From an uncultured Saprospiraceae bacterium (GTDB lineage: Bacteria; Bacteroidota; Bacteroidia; Chitinophagales; Saprospiraceae), in contig CALFWO010000015.1 in NCBI GenBank assembly GCA_937928045.1, positions 1 to 64,000 of the forward strand: a stretch of DNA of 64,000 nucleotides, in the 5' to 3' direction. Below the pieces are notes generated by a model. The model worked only from the letters and a program-made list of their open reading frames with translations. It searched no databases and was not told the origin of the DNA. The translations under genes were made by a program, and so were the position numbers. Within the stretch, counting starts at the first letter, position 1. Each line of letters begins with the position of its first letter. This document shows, piece after piece, positions 19,285 to 26,629 of this stretch.

Positions 19285-19459
19285 AATTGTGAAAAGTTGT
19301 TTGATACATAGACGGAGAAAAAGGTAATCTTCAAAATTTTGGTTTTGTGGGAAGTTGAAAATTTGGTGTAAGTTGTTGAATTTCAGGGAGAAGAAATTTT
19401 TAAAAAAGTTGAAGAGTGGTGGAAAATTTTGGGATTGGGGTAGGAGTTTGTGAAATTTT

Positions 19460-19490: not shown

Positions 19491-19510
19491 TACTTCTGGA
19501 ATTCAGGATC

Positions 19511-19567
19511 TGGCTAAAGTTGGGGACTGACTCGCGCGCGTAAGTGAGAGGCTAGCTTTAGTCCGTC
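19511..19567 (+). repeat. REP-like palindromic element A
   Basis: GC-rich imperfect palindrome. The core ACTCGCGCGCGTAAGT (19529-19544) folds on itself with G opposite G just outside the ACT/AGT pairs. An outer stem pairs GGCTAAAGTTGG (19512-19523) with CTAGCTTTAGTC (19552-19563) with G-T wobbles. It shares the plan T(A/G)GCT..AGTT.G..(C/T)TGACT..(C/T)GCGCG with elements B and C. Confidence 0.65.
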
Positions 19568-19654
19568 ACAAAAGAATTTAGAGTGATTTTTAAATCTAAA
19601 GCAATTTGTTGATGGGATAAATTCAAAATTGGAATTGAAAAAACAAATAGTATC

Positions 19655-19710
19655 TAGCTATAGTTAGACCTTGACTTACGCGCGTGAGTGAAGGACCATC
19701 TTAAGTCAGA
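19655..19710 (+). repeat. REP-like palindromic element B
   Basis: The core ACTTACGCGCGTGAGT (19674-19689) is a near-perfect 16-bp palindrome. It is extended by CCTT-G / G-AAGG to a 26-bp stem with one G-G mismatch. The 5' flank TAGCTATAGTTAGAC (19655-19669) matches element C (TAGCTTTAGTTAGAC) in 14 of 15 positions. A second stem, GACTTA/TAAGTC, overlaps it. Confidence 0.7.
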
Positions 19711-19756
19711 CCCTCAATCATCCCTATCTCATTCCTCGAACTTTCCCAAACCCAAA

Positions 19757-20506
19757 TTACCGATACCCATACTTATTCAACTCATCAAATCTTAACCCAA
19801 GTCGTAACCCAACAAACACTTGTTGCCAACTAAAAATATTCGCTGAAGCCGGCAGTGCAGGATTTTCCAGATATGCATCTCCGTGCTCTGAAACGAAAGT
19901 ATATTGAGCCAAAGGCGTAACAGTAATAAAATCAGAAACTCCGATGTCAATTCCTAACCCAGCTCTTAGATTATAACCAACACCACTGCTTTTATCAGAA
20001 GTTGTGGAAGTGCCTGTTATCGAAACATCAGTATAAGTTTTTCCAAAGTTATTGAAAGTAATCCCCGGTGCCACTCGAATGAAAAATCCTTTTTTCAACA
20101 ACTGCCCATCTTTTGAAAAGGTTGGACAATCACAATCTCCCTCAAAGTCAAAAGGATAAATTTGTGTGTTAAAATTAAATTGTAGACTGTTGATCAAAAT
20201 ATCATGATCATAGGCGAAATCTGGAAGTACTGTCGACGCAAGTTTGGCCTTTGCCTGGCTAAAACTAAGCTCCGGCAAAAATTCCAAACGTTTATTCTTT
20301 AGCCTAAACCAATAGTCAATGGCTACTTGATAGCTTCCACCATCCAGATTTTTCGAATTTTCACTATCCAAATCAGTCCTACTTTCAAAGAAGGTGTTGA
20401 AATCCGCTGCTTGATACTTTAAAAATCCTGACGTAATTCCAATTTGAGCAATAGATTGCGATGAAAAGTAAAATAGAATCGAAACTGTGAATAATAACTT
20501 TTTCAT
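19757..20506 (-). CDS. Outer-membrane beta-barrel protein
   Basis: 249 residues with a signal peptide (MKKLLFTVSILFYFSSQSIAQ). The rest alternates polar and hydrophobic residues in short strands (YQVAIDYWFRL, FFIRVAPGITF, YNLRAGLGIDIG, ITVTPLAQYTF, QVFVGLRLGLRF), typical of 8-stranded OMP_b-brl/porin-like proteins. An acidic loop has GDCDCP with two close cysteines. It ends in YGYR rather than a classical terminal Phe, but the last strand (VGLRLGLRF) is clear. No ligand can be inferred. Alone on the minus strand, divergent from rimO. Confidence 0.75.
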   Translation of the reverse strand: MKKLLFTVSILFYFSSQSIAQIGITSGFLKYQAADFNTFFESRTDLDSENSKNLDGGSYQVAIDYWFRLKNKRLEFLPELSFSQAKAKLASTVLPDFAYDHDILINSLQFNFNTQIYPFDFEGDCDCPTFSKDGQLLKKGFFIRVAPGITFNNFGKTYTDVSITGTSTTSDKSSGVGYNLRAGLGIDIGVSDFITVTPLAQYTFVSEHGDAYLENPALPASANIFSWQQVFVGLRLGLRFDELNKYGYR

Positions 20507-20607
20507 AAGAGGAAAACGTCTATACTAAGGGTCTAGTTGCCCAAAACTAAACAAAATATAACTATAGATCAATAATATATTAGAAAGGATTAGTCAGCAA
20601 GAACCCG

Positions 20608-20615
20608 TACTTTTG
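20608..20615 (+). promoter_or_regulatory. -7 box (TACTTTTG) of rimO
   Basis: Exact TAnnTTTG match ending 19 bp before the TTG start codon at 20635, predicting a leader of only ~12 nt. No clear -33 motif. Confidence 0.55.
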
Positions 20616-20634
20616 CAGACTAAATTTTTATCCA

Positions 20635-21945
20635 TTGAAGACAAAGACATTAGAGAAAGATAAGGTAAACGTGATCACCTTGGGCTGTAGTAAGAATCTT
20701 GTGGATTCTGAAAATCTGATTACGCAACTCAAAGCTAACGATTTTGAGGTGGAGCATGATAAGAATGAGACTGATGCCAATGTCATTGTCGTTAATACTT
20801 GTGGCTTTATTGATCTTGCAAAGGAAGAGTCCGTGAATACCATTTTGCAATATGCAGATGTAAAAAGAAACGGTGGGATTGATAAGTTATACGTGACTGG
20901 ATGTTTATCCCAGCGATATAAAGACGACTTGGAAAAGGAAATCCCTGAGGTCGATGCATACTTTGGAACGCTGGAATTGCCTGGTTTACTTCAGCGATTG
21001 AATGCAGATTATAAGCACGAGCTGATCGGCGAACGCCAAACAACAACTCCACCACATTACGCCTTCTTGAAAATATCTGAAGGTTGTAACCGAACTTGTT
21101 CATTTTGTGCAATACCGTTGATGCGAGGGAAGCACATTTCTCGATCTATTGAAGACCTGGTAGCTGAAGCTAAGAATTTAGCTAAAATGGGAACTAAAGA
21201 ATTGCTTTTAATTGCCCAAGAATCCACCTATTATGGCTTAGATTTATACAAAAAAAGAGCTTTACCAGAACTGATGGAGGCTTTGGCCGCGGTTGAAGGT
21301 ATCGAATGGATTCGTTTGCATTATGCTTACCCAAGTAAATTCCCTCTGGAAATTTTCGATGCCATTGCAAAACACGATAATGTCTGTAACTATATTGATC
21401 TTCCATTGCAGCATGCTTCAGATGCCGTGCTGAAAAGAATGCGCCGTCAAATTACTAGAAAAGAAACAGAGGACTTGATAAAAATAGCTCGTGAGCGAAT
21501 TCCTAATATTGGCTTGAGAACAACCATGCTGGTCGGTTTCCCTGGAGAAACTGAAGAAGAGTTTCAAGAACTTTGTGATTTTATCTCAGAACAGAAGTTT
21601 GAAAGGCTTGGAGTATTTCAATATTCACATGAAGAAGATACAATAGCACATGATATGAAAGATGATGTTCCGGCAGAAGTTAAAGCTGATCGAGCCAATC
21701 GTTTGATGGAAATTCAAAGAGAAATTTCTTTAGAAAAAAATCAAGCTAAAATAGGGCAGACCTTTAAAGTCTTGTTTGATCGAAAAGAAGGCGAATTTTT
21801 TGTTGGAAGAACAGAATTTGACTCTCCCGAAGTTGACAATGAAGTATTATTACCGGCAGATCAGTATGTTAGAATCGGAGACTTTGCAGAAGTCAAAATT
21901 GTTGATGCAGAAGAATTTGATCTTTACGGAGAATTAGTGTCTTAA
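20635..21945 (+). CDS. rimO: Ribosomal protein uS12 methylthiotransferase RimO (TTG start)
   Basis: 436-residue radical-SAM methylthiotransferase that thiomethylates the conserved Asp of ribosomal protein S12. The N-terminal UPF0004 domain has NVITLGCSKNLVDSE and VNTCGFI and VTGCLSQRY, with three cluster cysteines. The radical-SAM motif is Cys151-x3-Cys155-x2-Cys158 in EGCNRTCSFCAIP. The C-terminal TRAM domain follows from about residue 375. The frame starts at TTG (20635); MKTKTL fits the usual N-terminus of Bacteroidota RimO, and no ATG lies between it and NVITLGC. A -7 box sits 20 bp upstream and a strong terminator lies at 21971. Confidence 0.97.
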   Translation: MKTKTLEKDKVNVITLGCSKNLVDSENLITQLKANDFEVEHDKNETDANVIVVNTCGFIDLAKEESVNTILQYADVKRNGGIDKLYVTGCLSQRYKDDLEKEIPEVDAYFGTLELPGLLQRLNADYKHELIGERQTTTPPHYAFLKISEGCNRTCSFCAIPLMRGKHISRSIEDLVAEAKNLAKMGTKELLLIAQESTYYGLDLYKKRALPELMEALAAVEGIEWIRLHYAYPSKFPLEIFDAIAKHDNVCNYIDLPLQHASDAVLKRMRRQITRKETEDLIKIARERIPNIGLRTTMLVGFPGETEEEFQELCDFISEQKFERLGVFQYSHEEDTIAHDMKDDVPAEVKADRANRLMEIQREISLEKNQAKIGQTFKVLFDRKEGEFFVGRTEFDSPEVDNEVLLPADQYVRIGDFAEVKIVDAEEFDLYGELVS

Positions 21946-21970
21946 ATTTTTCAACAATAAAATATATGAA

Positions 21971-22007
21971 AGACCTGGCGGAATTTAAATTCTGTCAGGT
22001 CTTTTTT
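21971..22007 (+). terminator. Rho-independent terminator of rimO
   Basis: A 14-bp stem (AGACCTGGCGGAAT / ATTCTGTCAGGTCT with G-T wobbles), a 4-nt loop (TTAA) and a run of T follow the rimO stop by 25 bp. Confidence 0.9.
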
Positions 22008-22238
22008 ATTCGCCAAATATGATCTTAGTTAAGGTTATTTCTTTTACTTAAACCAACGCTTTTTATATTTTCCAACTCCAGACTAATTGACCAATAACAA
22101 TCAAATTATCATTGCAATTTGAATTTGATTGGAATAATAAATATAGTTCAATTTAAAATATTAGGTTACCAACCTTTTTCTGAATAAAACTCACTTTATA
22201 ACAGTTAGTAAAAACAGTACAATCTTAAAATTCAAATT

Positions 22239-22787
22239 ATGAAAGCCATTTTAACCTTTATTGTATTTCTATGCTCAATGCAATTGTCTGCTCAGTTTGC
22301 ATCATTTCCTGAAACAAAAAAATCCATTGGAAAAAACAGCTTTAATGTGCAATATAGTTCGTTGGAAGGTGTTGGACTTAACTTTGAAAGAAGTTTGTTA
22401 CAGAAAAATAAATTTTCTCTTTTTGGTCAAGTTGGGTTGAGTAGTGTTCTTCCATTAGTTGGGAAAAGCTCAAATAATTCTAGTGTTTCATTTTCACGTT
22501 TAATAGGTTTTTCGGCTAACATAGGTTTAGCGGCAAATTATTCATTCAATGAATCCCATAGTATTAGAATTGGTGCCGGATTGCGAAGATACCAATTTTA
22601 TAAACCTGATACCTACCAAGAGTTATTTTCTGGTATAGGTTATGATCAATTATCAAAATATTTGGATTTAGAATATCGGTTTCAGCCTAAAGATTCGAAA
22701 TTTTATTTTCTCGCAGGTTACCGACATTCTTTTCATGAGAATTTCAATTTGGGAGGTCTAAAGTTAGGAATGGGATTTAAATTCTAA
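22239..22787 (+). CDS. Small secreted outer-membrane barrel-like protein
   Basis: 182 residues. Signal peptide MKAILTFIVFLCSMQLSAQ, then strand-like segments with alternating residues (FNVQYSSLEGVGLNFERSL, FSLFGQVGLSSV, IGLAANYSF, SIRIGAGLRRYQF, YLDLEYRF, FYFLAGYRHSF) and a terminal LKLGMGFKF ending in Phe, as outer-membrane barrels do. I do not recognise a specific family. It lies alone between rimO and a convergent FG-GAP gene, with its own upstream gap of ~290 bp and a shared terminator at 22806. Confidence 0.65.
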   Translation: MKAILTFIVFLCSMQLSAQFASFPETKKSIGKNSFNVQYSSLEGVGLNFERSLLQKNKFSLFGQVGLSSVLPLVGKSSNNSSVSFSRLIGFSANIGLAANYSFNESHSIRIGAGLRRYQFYKPDTYQELFSGIGYDQLSKYLDLEYRFQPKDSKFYFLAGYRHSFHENFNLGGLKLGMGFKF

Positions 22788-22805
22788 GTAACCATTTTTA
22801 ACGAA

Positions 22806-22843
22806 AAAATCCGATTGCCAATTTAACTTGCCAATCGGATTTT
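22806..22843. terminator. Bidirectional terminator
   Basis: A 12-bp perfect stem (AAAATCCGATTG / CAATCGGATTTT) with a 14-nt loop lies between two convergent genes. The minus-strand side ends in six T, so it serves the 22865-26194 gene best. Confidence 0.85.
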
Positions 22844-22864
22844 GTAATTTTTGCAAGTTGTAAA

Positions 22865-25800
22865 TTATTGGTAAACCGTAATCTTATCATCATTGCTTGC
22901 CATTACAACCAATGGATTTTTAGCTTTAGAATTCAATAACAATAATGTTCGAACATCACTTTTAGCTTTAAGTCCGCTGGCAACGCTAGGCATAGCACTA
23001 AAAAGCCCATCAGCATTTCCAAGAAGAATTTGTCCGATACCCGCATCCGATCTCGTTGTTTCTACTTCACGATGAAAGAAGTTACCAGCGAGTAAAATAT
23101 CTTGATGACCATCTCCATTCCAATCCCTTACCGCAAAACCATTCGTTGGGGCAATCTGCGCTTCAATAGGCAGTTTTTCTAAATTGAAAACTCCGTTTTC
23201 TTTTCTCAATATTACAGATTCAAATATTTGAGCTTCGTGTTGAATCGCTCCTTGCTTTCGATCTCCTAGCACTTCCTCTATAGTAGCTTTACCAAAAGCT
23301 TCATATGTTATAAATTCGCTTTTCACAAATGGCAGTTGTTGAGAAGAGCATTCTCGACCTCTCACCGGGTAGCACTGTCCATCAGCATCATAATATCCAA
23401 GGTAAATGTCATTAGATCCATTATTGTCAAAATCTTTGATAAAGACTTTGAATGGTTCTTCTTCTGACGCTTTATATTTAATATTTAAACCCAAATTACC
23501 AGCCAGTAAATCTATGTCGCCATCTCCATCTATATCAGCTTGTTCTAGACAATTCCACCAGCCATTTGTGTTTTGTAATTGGTAATCTTTTGTTACAGAT
23601 ACCAGTTTGTTACCTTCTTTTTTGAAAAAAGTAATTGGCATCCATTCGCCAACCAGCACTAAATCGGAATCTTTATCTTCGTCAATATCCATCCAAAGGG
23701 CATCAGTAACCATTCCGATACTTTGTAACTCAGGTGCAAGATTAGATGTTTGATCTATGAATTTTCCAGTCTCATTTATTAATAAATGACTCTGAGCTGG
23801 ATGACCATATTTCCCAGGGACTTGTCTACCACCAATGAAAAGATCTAAATCTCCATCACTGTCAAAATCCACAGCCGCTACAGCAGAGTTACTTCCAAGC
23901 AGTTTTGGTAGCCAATTAGATTTTGTAAATCCATTTTTTCCATCATTAAGATACAGTCTATCTTGTAAAAGTGGACTTCCAATTTGAAACTCATTTCCTC
24001 CACTAGCAACATACAAATCTAAATCTCCGTCTTGATCTGCATCAAAAAATAGCGAACCAGAATCTTCAGATCCTCTGTCGTGATTGAAAATACTTAAAGC
24101 CATTTTGGTGAAATTTCCATTTTGACTTTGAAGATAGATCATTCCGGCTTGACCAGCTGCGCCACCAATAAATAGATCTTCCAGACCGTCTTTGTTAATA
24201 TCTCCTTTAGCCATGCAGGGTCCAAGTTGAGACATACGATGAGGTAATAAAATTTCTTTGGCAAAATCATCAAATTCATTTTCTTGATGCACAAAATCAA
24301 TTCCTTTCGCTTGCGGCACCTCAGCCAATATTCCAATTTTATTTTTGCGGGTGTTAACCTTTTCAGTGGCTTCTGATTCCTTAAATATCAACTCTTGATT
24401 AACTTTAATTCCCTTTTGACTTTGTATTTTTCCTGAAGACCATTCTATTTCAATCCGATCAATATTAGAGTGAATACCCATGCCAAAATGTATTGCCGAT
24501 TCACTGCATGACATAAAACCTTTTGTAGGTAATAATTCTTGCATTTGCATTTGACCTTCGCCAAAATATATTCTAACTTTTGCTCCAATTCCCTTTTTAT
24601 TTTTTCCATCTCCCTTTAATCGAACCCTTAAATAATTATTTAGGGCTAACTCAGTTGCTTGGTTACGATAGACTGATGCGGGCTCGTCCATATTGTTAAA
24701 TATTAAATCTACATCTCCATCGTTATCTAAGTCAGAAAAGGCCGCACCTTGAGACCATCCGGCTGCTCCTTCAAATCCCCATTTATCCATCATTTTTTTA
24801 AACGTCAAGTTCCCCTGATTTCGATACAAATAATTTTGCAATTTTACAGAGGGCGCTAGATCCAGTAGTTCAATGGGGTGTACACTTTGCTGGCCTTCAG
24901 CTGCTTTTTTCGCTGCATATGCTTCTGCTTTTTTCTTAAAGTCATTGTTTCGCATGTCCCGACGAATACCATTAGTCACCAACAAATCTCGATAACCATC
25001 ATTATCAAAGTCAACTAACAACGGACTCCAACTCCAGTCAGTATTAGATACCCCGGCCATTTGCGCTATATCACTAAAGGTTCCATTTCCATTGTTTAAT
25101 TGTAGGGTATTGAACATATATTGATGATGCAATCCACTTTCAACACTTTGCCAAAAACGAAGTGGATTCATACCACTCATATTCGTCTTTAATCGACTGT
25201 TGTCGGCTGCTACCATATCTGCAACGAATAGATCAGCCCAACCGTCATTATTAATATCAGCAATATCTGCTCCCATACTAAAGTTGGAAATATGTTGGAG
25301 TTGCTCATGAGCCACATTGGTGAAAGTTCCATCCCCATTATTATGAAAAAGATAATCAGGTTCTTCGTAATCACAAGCAACATAAATATCAGGCCATCCG
25401 TCTTGATCCAAATCTGAAATTGTTGCACTCAAAGAATAAGCATAGTTTGCAATTCCAGATTGATCGGTTGCATCCGTAAATGTACCATTACCATTATTTT
25501 TGTAAAGCCGATCAGTATAAACCATATTTTGCTTACCAAGCATTTGTTGCTTCATGGCCTTTGAATTCGGTGGTTGATTACAAATGTATAAATCAAGATC
25601 ACCATCTTTATCATAGTCAAAGAAAGTTGCCGCAATGCCTAAGCCTGGATCATCAATCCCATATTCTTTTCCACGTTCAGTAAATGTTAGATCACCATTG
25701 TTGATGTATAGTTTGTTTCGACGTTGATTGAAATCATCAAATAAGAAATTACAAATGTATATGTCCAGCCAACCATCACCATTTACATCAGCCATAGTAA

Positions 25801-26194
25801 CACCTTTAGACCATTCCTTGTGATTTGCGATTCCAGCGGATGTTGTAATATCTTTGAACTTTAAGTCTCCTTGATTCAAATACAATTTCTCCGGAACCAT
25901 ATTTCCAGAAAAGAATATATCATCAAGCCCATCATTGTTGATATCACCAATAGCCAAGCCGCTTCCTTGATAAACCGCATCGTATACAAAGAAGTTAATG
26001 TTCAAATTTTCGGTGATCTTATTGTTGAAAGTTATTCCGGTATTTTCAGGAGACAATCGTTCGAATAGTTGAAATTGTTCACTGTTTTGACTTTCCGTTA
26101 TCAGGTTTCCACCGCCTTCATTTGCGCAAGAATTGATTAGAAGCATAGAGATTGCAACTGCCGTAAGCCTTAAAAAGATGGACGTTTTACTCAT
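22865..26194 (-). CDS. FG-GAP/VCBS repeat lipoprotein with ASPIC/UnbV domain (CRTAC1-like)
   Basis: About 1109 residues. The signal ends in a lipobox (LLINSC), so it is probably anchored in the outer membrane. Two beta-propeller-like blocks carry at least fourteen calcium-binding D-x-D/N-x-D/N-G-x-x-D loops (for example DINNDGLDDIF, DYDKDGDLDLY, DFDSDGDLDLF, DWNGDGHQDIL). Between them is an ASPIC/UnbV segment (NNYLRVRLKGDGKN...GIGAKVRIY...IHFGMG). This architecture is common in Bacteroidota surface proteins of unknown ligand, often near polysaccharide uptake systems; no SusC/D pair is seen here. ATG at 26194 is preferred over 26212 because it starts directly before the signal peptide. Confidence 0.88.
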   Translation of the reverse strand: MSKTSIFLRLTAVAISMLLINSCANEGGGNLITESQNSEQFQLFERLSPENTGITFNNKITENLNINFFVYDAVYQGSGLAIGDINNDGLDDIFFSGNMVPEKLYLNQGDLKFKDITTSAGIANHKEWSKGVTMADVNGDGWLDIYICNFLFDDFNQRRNKLYINNGDLTFTERGKEYGIDDPGLGIAATFFDYDKDGDLDLYICNQPPNSKAMKQQMLGKQNMVYTDRLYKNNGNGTFTDATDQSGIANYAYSLSATISDLDQDGWPDIYVACDYEEPDYLFHNNGDGTFTNVAHEQLQHISNFSMGADIADINNDGWADLFVADMVAADNSRLKTNMSGMNPLRFWQSVESGLHHQYMFNTLQLNNGNGTFSDIAQMAGVSNTDWSWSPLLVDFDNDGYRDLLVTNGIRRDMRNNDFKKKAEAYAAKKAAEGQQSVHPIELLDLAPSVKLQNYLYRNQGNLTFKKMMDKWGFEGAAGWSQGAAFSDLDNDGDVDLIFNNMDEPASVYRNQATELALNNYLRVRLKGDGKNKKGIGAKVRIYFGEGQMQMQELLPTKGFMSCSESAIHFGMGIHSNIDRIEIEWSSGKIQSQKGIKVNQELIFKESEATEKVNTRKNKIGILAEVPQAKGIDFVHQENEFDDFAKEILLPHRMSQLGPCMAKGDINKDGLEDLFIGGAAGQAGMIYLQSQNGNFTKMALSIFNHDRGSEDSGSLFFDADQDGDLDLYVASGGNEFQIGSPLLQDRLYLNDGKNGFTKSNWLPKLLGSNSAVAAVDFDSDGDLDLFIGGRQVPGKYGHPAQSHLLINETGKFIDQTSNLAPELQSIGMVTDALWMDIDEDKDSDLVLVGEWMPITFFKKEGNKLVSVTKDYQLQNTNGWWNCLEQADIDGDGDIDLLAGNLGLNIKYKASEEEPFKVFIKDFDNNGSNDIYLGYYDADGQCYPVRGRECSSQQLPFVKSEFITYEAFGKATIEEVLGDRKQGAIQHEAQIFESVILRKENGVFNLEKLPIEAQIAPTNGFAVRDWNGDGHQDILLAGNFFHREVETTRSDAGIGQILLGNADGLFSAMPSVASGLKAKSDVRTLLLLNSKAKNPLVVMASNDDKITVYQ

Positions 26195-26212
26195 GAATAG
26201 TTGATTTATCAT

Positions 26213-26629
26213 TTGTTTCGGTATTGATTTGGGTCAAATATTTTACCGATTAAACAGTTCATTCCAGATCAACGAAATATAAATCAACGACTATGCCACT
26301 TATTTTCAGGTAGTTATAGATGTCAGAAAAACTTAAAATTATTCCATTTTTATTTCAGTTTGTTGGAACAACATTGGGAGATGAAATTGGGCGTAATTAA
26401 GATGTGGTAATGCTATAATTATTTGATTTGTAGTCTTATAGCTTCAGGATTTCACCTAAGACAGGGAAGAATTACAATTGATTTTAACTGATTTTGATTA
26501 AGGCACTAGCTTTAGTTAGACACTGACTCGTGCGCGCGAGGCCAAGACCAACACGATTTCAACCCAGCTGTTATCAGATTTGATCAACCCGTTTCAAATT
26601 CGTAACATTACGATACAAATAAGTACCAA
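26213..26629. other. 417-bp divergent intergenic region containing REP-like element C
   Basis: AT-rich DNA between the divergent FG-GAP lipoprotein and nhaC genes. The only structured part is the GC-rich REP-like element at 26507-26550. A near-match -7 box (CAGATTTG) lies near 26574-26581 on the + strand, ahead of nhaC. Confidence 0.55.
26507..26550 (+). repeat. REP-like palindromic element C
   Basis: TAGCTTTAGTTAGAC (26507-26521) followed by the core ACTCGTGCGCGCGAGG (26525-26540). Compared with element B the inner pairs T-G and A-T become C-G and G-C, so base pairing is kept while sequence changes. It is followed by CAAGACCA, against AAGGACCA in B. It lies 7 kb from the RAYT gene. Confidence 0.65.

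Follow-up and report, generated by a model that had tools for sequence, protein, structure and literature searches.

What does a RAYT-like gene do with the palindromes that stand upstream of it? The question is raised by a 64,000-nt stretch of DNA from an uncultured Saprospiraceae bacterium (contig CALFWO010000015.1), called here the window; coordinates are those of the window, and its own 5.18 Mb genome is referred to as G000. An earlier note on this DNA had described three palindromes (here elements A, B and C) resembling repetitive extragenic palindromes (REPs) near a RAYT-like gene, and had read the arrangement as REPtron-type. The elements proved to belong to a family of palindromes, multi-copy and extragenic, that goes with a RAYT-derived gene, and the gene to a clade in which known catalytic motifs have been lost. 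Our preferred reading, to which we assign a probability of about one half, is that the gene, whose ancestor was a DNA-cutting transposase, is a domesticated RAYT, probably unable to cleave DNA and kept as a putative binder of the palindrome upstream of it.

Loss of the catalytic motifs in a single clade

Nine copies of the gene were compared, three from G000 and six from G001, a fragmented metagenome-assembled genome (MAG) of the same genus that is 73% complete. A further member of the genus, G002 (81% complete), has none. The first catalytic His is replaced by Gln in all nine copies and the second is kept in eight, so that the HUH position reads Q-F-H (NQFH) in eight copies and Q-F-F (NQFF) in one, a122. 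The Y-x-x-x-N-P (YIxxNP) motif with the catalytic Tyr was absent from all nine copies read, and no invariant Tyr follows residue 81 among eight aligned clade members; Y81 itself is also invariant in the canonical sister proteins, where the YIHxNP motif has a different Tyr. In those sisters PNHFH and YIHxNP are invariant, with H54, H56 and Y131 present in 11 of 11 aligned. Relatives from other genera kept H-F-H and Y-x-x-x-N in 32 of 32 readable cases, these being the best-scoring loci rather than all matches, with one broken frame (L066) dropped.

The N-terminal core is homologous to that of canonical RAYTs. Profile alignment with canonical RAYTs (hhalign) gave 99.8% over residues 1-106, the sole alignable part, and placed Q54 opposite H54. 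In a midpoint-rooted tree of 31 rows, with clade rows cut to residues 1-106, the clade had one origin (support 100/100) and fell inside a group of 25 rows, 17 of them canonical (100/99). An AlphaFold2 model had a mean pLDDT of 63 and a pTM of 0.47, with residues 1-80 at 58-90 by block, and the ten best Foldseek matches were all IS200/IS605-type transposases with weak E values of about 0.01-0.03. The Pfam family Y1_Tnp matched one of eight clade proteins at E 0.036 and none below 0.001, but because only one of the 11 canonical sisters matched at 0.001 this miss is not diagnostic. The window protein matched nothing in Pfam at E<=1 and had one weak unrelated hit in NCBIfam; a PDB sequence search with the family profile gave only matches of E 0.24 or worse (eS17, lysozyme/endolysin).

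The gene appears to be restricted to the genus. Two peptide patterns searched against 84,980 species (one genome each, a set that may leave out the window's own genome) found six loci, all in the MAG G001. Matches occurred in 112 of 298 family genomes, and among the matches listed only those in G000 and G001 were full length. Among 396 order genomes (G001 not included) 32 had a match at E<=1e-15, and those outside G000 ended by residue 126, save one reaching 155. Mobilisation in trans by an active canonical RAYT of the genus was considered and rejected: across the three genomes the canonical profile matched the nine copies (G000 and G001) alone, and G002 gave no match. PF01797 matches contain internal stops in G000 and G001, and four without stops were present in G002.

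Reading frames are open in eight of the nine copies. The recent pair a551/a483 is under constraint, with a dN/dS of 0.063 (NG86) or 0.096 (YN00). One recent duplicate spans about 1 kb and ends outside both the palindrome and the gene, and a precise mobile unit is thereby ruled out for that duplicate.

The palindromes and their pairing with the gene

Elements A, B and C are present as described, with starts one base off (Table 1). On the + strand no other site of the window matches any of them as well as they match one another: 30-34 of the 45 core nucleotides are identical, as against 24-25 for the next-best site outside the elements. The base pairs also read as reported: T-G/A-T in B, C-G/G-C in C, and C-A, which is a mismatch, and G-T in A; A and B also have G-G beyond the core. 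The conclusion drawn from them, that covariation implies selection on folding, finds no support in these three copies alone, because their single-strand folding (+ strand) was no better than that of shuffles (z +0.97, +0.03 and +0.21) and neither A nor B was among the eight palindromes that reached a score of 11 in a generic scan of the window. The earlier note did not state that A and B are decayed inverted dimers of one half-unit. This half-unit, common to A, B and C, has a 23-nt head (roughly CTRGCTWWAGTTRGGGACTGACT) and, next to it, a GC-alternating centre; in A and B a decayed mirror-image head lies on the other side of the centre. Inverted-repeat arms at 19501-19561 and 19658-19718 are 72% complementary. 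A and B start 225 and 369 bp upstream of the start of the RAYT-derived gene, and C lies 7 kb from that gene, between two divergently transcribed genes.

Table 1. Features of the window discussed in the text
Feature	Position	Strand	Description
RAYT-derived gene, 177 aa	18751-19284	-	Q-F-H at the HUH position, YIxxNP motif absent; open reading frame, homologs, profile alignment with canonical RAYTs, AlphaFold2 model and Foldseek, both of moderate strength
Leader block TTGAAGATT..CTCCGTCTATGTATC	19303-19334	-	Contains CGTCNATGTA (nine of nine gene copies) and CCGTCNATGTA (eight of nine); putative promoter
Element A	19510-19565	.	Inverted dimer of 23-nt head around alternating GC centre; decayed, 15/23 arm matches
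Element B	19654-19709	.	Inverted dimer; decayed, 15/23 arm matches
Element C	26506-26541	+	Half-unit (head plus centre); right arm not recognisable

A pattern search of G000 allowing up to three mismatches gave eight matches, and the reversed pattern none. Five of the eight coincide with A, B and C, with A and B matching on each strand; the remaining three mark new sites, of which one lies upstream of a second gene copy. A sequence-only model, R1, was built from 24 half-units; as its seeds came from G000 and G001, its hits there are partly by construction. At E<=0.01 it gave 19 half-hits in G000, which merged into 14 clear elements: ten of the main form, three with the tail CGCGCGAACAAAA and one of a second class (C11). 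In G001 there were 37 half-hits at E<=10 and, after merging, about 20 elements at E<=0.01, and the gene-less G002 had no element at E<=0.01 (best E 0.56). Under stricter filters, 100 family genomes (without G001) yielded G000 and, in the 98 other than G000 and G002, one marginal hit (G082, E 0.009). Of the 14 clear G000 elements, 13 have no overlap with any open reading frame of at least 90 aa; the other, C51b, runs with its last 4 nt into a long frame, counted from the earliest start that this frame could have. The chance of at least 13 of 14 falling outside genes is about 1e-12, taking as a guide the coding fraction of the window (0.87, for ATG frames of at least 100 aa). Rfam at gathering thresholds gave no match in 101,053 bases from six sources, and the GT[AG]G head was absent from 23 of 24 half-units on both strands. 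Integron attC sites, whose core consensus is GTTRRRY, were rejected as an identity for the element: GTTAGAC fits this core, and inspection by eye showed no RYYYAAC partner or cassette layout.

Other forms of the element were seen. The second class has the same 23-nt head and a tail like TTACGGGGCCGGGCGTTTCAG (L109, L112:11834-11909, L113:2092-2700, L118, L122-L126, L030:511-586); in G000 four copies form an array with a period of about 177 bp (C43), with a fifth, weaker hit, and a gene encoding sigma-70 region 2 and region 4 domains lies about 250 bp away. A third form, the head followed by CGCGCGAACAAAAAAT, has three copies in G000 (L108:2803, L108:5841, L111:2251). The C49 element (L115:2780-2887) continues into a long CA/GT alternating microsatellite.

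The best relatives are near-perfect inverted dimers of 54-64 bp. Of 13 inverted dimers listed in total, eight were folded, each alone, and all of these folded strongly (z -3.9 to -14.8); the other five are A and B, with the z values given above, and three C30 hybrids, in which the two arms match at only 9-11 of 23 positions. By eye, the arms of the hybrid dimers (L117:793-1365, with three dimers, and L121:140-199) look like different head types, one resembling the a122 site and the other the a278 site. Arms matched their own partners better than the arms of other elements, at 18.6 against 14.7 of 23 positions in ten dimers (without a483, C30b and C30c) and 17.6 against 14.6 in all 13; the p value, 5e-5, is the floor of 20,000 permutations. 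The centre alternates between purine and pyrimidine, with a median longest run of 12 (element windows of 47-108 nt; the run of C49 is its microsatellite) as against 5 in 60-nt background windows. Runs of at least 11 occurred in 17 of 27 elements and in 1.8% of the background. Such a pattern would be prone to form Z-DNA.

Each gene copy is accompanied by an element. A position weight matrix (PWM) built from seven seeds detected elements upstream of all nine genes, including all seven that had given no seed. For the latter the best element scored 18.3-36.8, whereas the maximum in five mononucleotide shuffles of the window was 9.6. The nearest element lies about 0.16-0.32 kb from the gene start. 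With the seven-seed PWM no element was detected downstream of the genes in the 0.5-1.5 kb fetched there, and a wider PWM detected one weak second-class head about 0.9 kb downstream of a551. Head sequences diverged together with the proteins: in a Mantel test on mean head distances r was 0.81 (p 0.0009), falling to 0.77 (p 0.004) without the recent duplicate a483 and to 0.49 (p 0.023) when a122 was also omitted. In ten of the 11 canonical sisters a palindrome lies no more than about 110 bp upstream, and five of the 11 also have one at the gene 3′ end, whereas the clade elements lie upstream only and farther out. By eye, the core of the clade head, GGGTGACT or GGTTTCACT, was present in four of 11 canonical sisters, and the clade elements therefore plausibly derive from ordinary RAYT palindromes. 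In other genera palindromes were seen within RAYT genes or frames or reaching across their ends (L028, L029, L032, L033, L055, L057, L069); insertion of a palindrome within the gene is described for subclass 2.4 (PMC6006769).

Between element and gene lies a conserved leader. The motif CGTCNATGTA occurs 13-20 nt before the start codon in all nine copies, and CCGTCNATGTA in eight, a122 differing. At the leader position a TTGAA box is present in the three G000 copies, and ATGGAAT takes its place in the G001 copies. The sequence TCCGTCNATGTA occurs seven times in G000 (reversed control four) and seven times in G001 (control two). In G000 the sites belong to three gene copies, a pair of DUF3276/PurA-like genes and a DUF2851 gene, and the seventh falls inside a 657-codon open frame; in G001 they comprise four gene copies and three sites inside long open frames; given these sites inside frames, chance matches are to be expected among the occurrences. 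CTCCGTCNATGTATC was found in three of 60 relatives (G000, G001 and G046). The CCGTCNATGTA leader, which most RAYT-derived genes have in common with two DUF3276/PurA-like genes and one DUF2851 gene (L137, L139, L143), may be a shared promoter, and a main-form element (C49) stands about 360 bp upstream of one PurA-like gene.

Known systems and competing explanations

The system resembles several known ones without coinciding with any of them. RAYTs of class 2 have the homologous N-terminal core that is present in the clade (residues 1-106), together with the HUH and Tyr motifs that the clade does not have. REPINs are treated by Bertels and Rainey (2011; PMC3116915). As described in PMC8049555, they likewise consist of a repeated half-unit in inverted orientation, lie outside genes and go with a RAYT-type gene; the clade differs in its low copy number, in a pair that forms one continuous palindrome, and in a protein without the known catalytic residues. 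A RAYT is typically a single-copy gene (PMC8049555) and REPs usually exceed 100 copies (PMC2817692), whereas here the gene is multi-copy and the extragenic elements are few and almost always without the GT[AG]G head, so that the likeness to REPs asserted earlier does not extend to copy number. Nor is such a system little described in Bacteroidota: Quentin et al. (2018; PMC6006769) report Bacteroidetes RAYTs of subclass 2.6 with 'atypical secondary structures'. Subclass 2.6 shares with the clade the N-terminal core and motifs and gene-linked atypical palindromes with copies elsewhere; it differs in having the HUH and Y motifs, and the clade in a C-terminal part that cannot be aligned, in multiple gene copies and in the long alternating centre. 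Sequences lacking the core motifs were excluded in the same study, on the view that they probably do not function. In the open-access literature searched we found no report of a paralogous clade without both catalytic motifs and with cognate palindromes. Of the earlier interpretation, an extragenic family tied to a RAYT-derived gene is supported; a normal REPtron, selection on folding as read from the three window copies and a dearth of earlier descriptions in Bacteroidota are not.

TldR proteins originated from TnpB with loss of its nuclease. Described as RNA-guided transcription factors (PMC13418256), they offer an analogy, an IS200/IS605-associated protein family repurposed for gene regulation; they are, however, a different family and are RNA-guided, and the regulation reported for TldR would in the clade be a prediction.

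The view of a domesticated binder has several observations to contend with. The window elements are decayed. A generic finder detected a near-perfect long palindrome at only four of nine genes, upstream in all four, and at the other five genes the elements are halves or decayed. The Mantel correlation becomes weaker when minimum head distances are used: 0.75 (p 0.002), 0.72 (p 0.010) and, once a483 and a122 are left out, 0.38 (p 0.064). One gene of nine, the C70 copy of G000, has a TAA stop at codon 24. Saturation or failure affected most dN/dS pairs, leaving one usable recent pair. The structural model is of moderate confidence, and no Foldseek match passes E 0.001. Arm symmetry could be due to quasi-palindrome correction rather than to selection, and both comparison genomes are incomplete, G001 being also fragmented.

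Some of these facts would suit a decaying remnant, in which dead RAYT copies and palindromes have no present function: the decayed window elements, the C70 stop, the low copy number and the broken IS200-type matches in G000 and G001. We regard this as unlikely in view of the eight open frames, the low dN/dS of the recent pair, the near-perfect long palindromes elsewhere and the CGTCNATGTA leader in every copy. It is slightly less likely still that a different host factor binds the palindromes, or that they act as terminators or insulators, with the gene nearby only by descent. Some dispersed elements do lie between convergent genes, that at C70:112520 beginning 5 nt past a gene end, and the C49 element precedes a DUF3276/PurA-like gene sharing the leader motif. 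Yet the Mantel test ties element type to the protein (more weakly when minimum distances are used), and G002, the member of the genus that lacks the gene, yields no element at E<=0.01. An ordinary REPtron, in which the protein still cleaves single-stranded palindromes by means of Gln and another nucleophile and mobilises the elements, seems improbable. The pairing of gene and palindrome and the extragenic dispersal are REPtron-like, and some HUH enzymes have Gln at one motif His. Against this, the first His is lost in all nine copies and both are lost in a122, no conserved Tyr follows residue 81, the elements are few, and the recent duplicate, unlike a palindrome-bounded unit, ends outside palindrome and gene.

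A possible protein-operator system

Under the domesticated-binder reading, a genus-restricted clade lost the first catalytic His and the Tyr-bearing motif and retained the N-terminal core, together with a conserved stretch at about residues 71-102. Cognate palindromes stand upstream of each copy; at their best they are inverted dimers of the 23-nt head around the alternating purine-pyrimidine centre. The protein most likely binds its own element, as a duplex, a cruciform or a single-strand hairpin. Because the known cutting residues are gone and the upstream palindromes are kept, binding rather than cutting may be what is selected. By binding there, upstream of the conserved promoter-like block, the protein might regulate its own gene or shape the local DNA; the dispersed elements would be further binding sites, or remnants of spread by a once-active RAYT.

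More tentatively, and with greater doubt than attaches to binding as such, the RAYT/REPIN arrangement may have become a protein-operator system, in which cleavage-dead paralogs have their own inverted-dimer operators, and dispersed and hybrid elements combine the half-sites of two paralogs. If true, this would be the transcription-factor or regulator role once speculated for RAYTs and REPINs in the discussion of PMC8049555, with catalysis removed by evolution.

Why bacteria retain RAYTs over the long term is an open question, and it is the reason for interest in this clade. That the catalytic motifs were dropped and the gene-palindrome pairing was kept suggests that binding alone can be selected, and for that question the clade amounts to a natural separation-of-function mutant.

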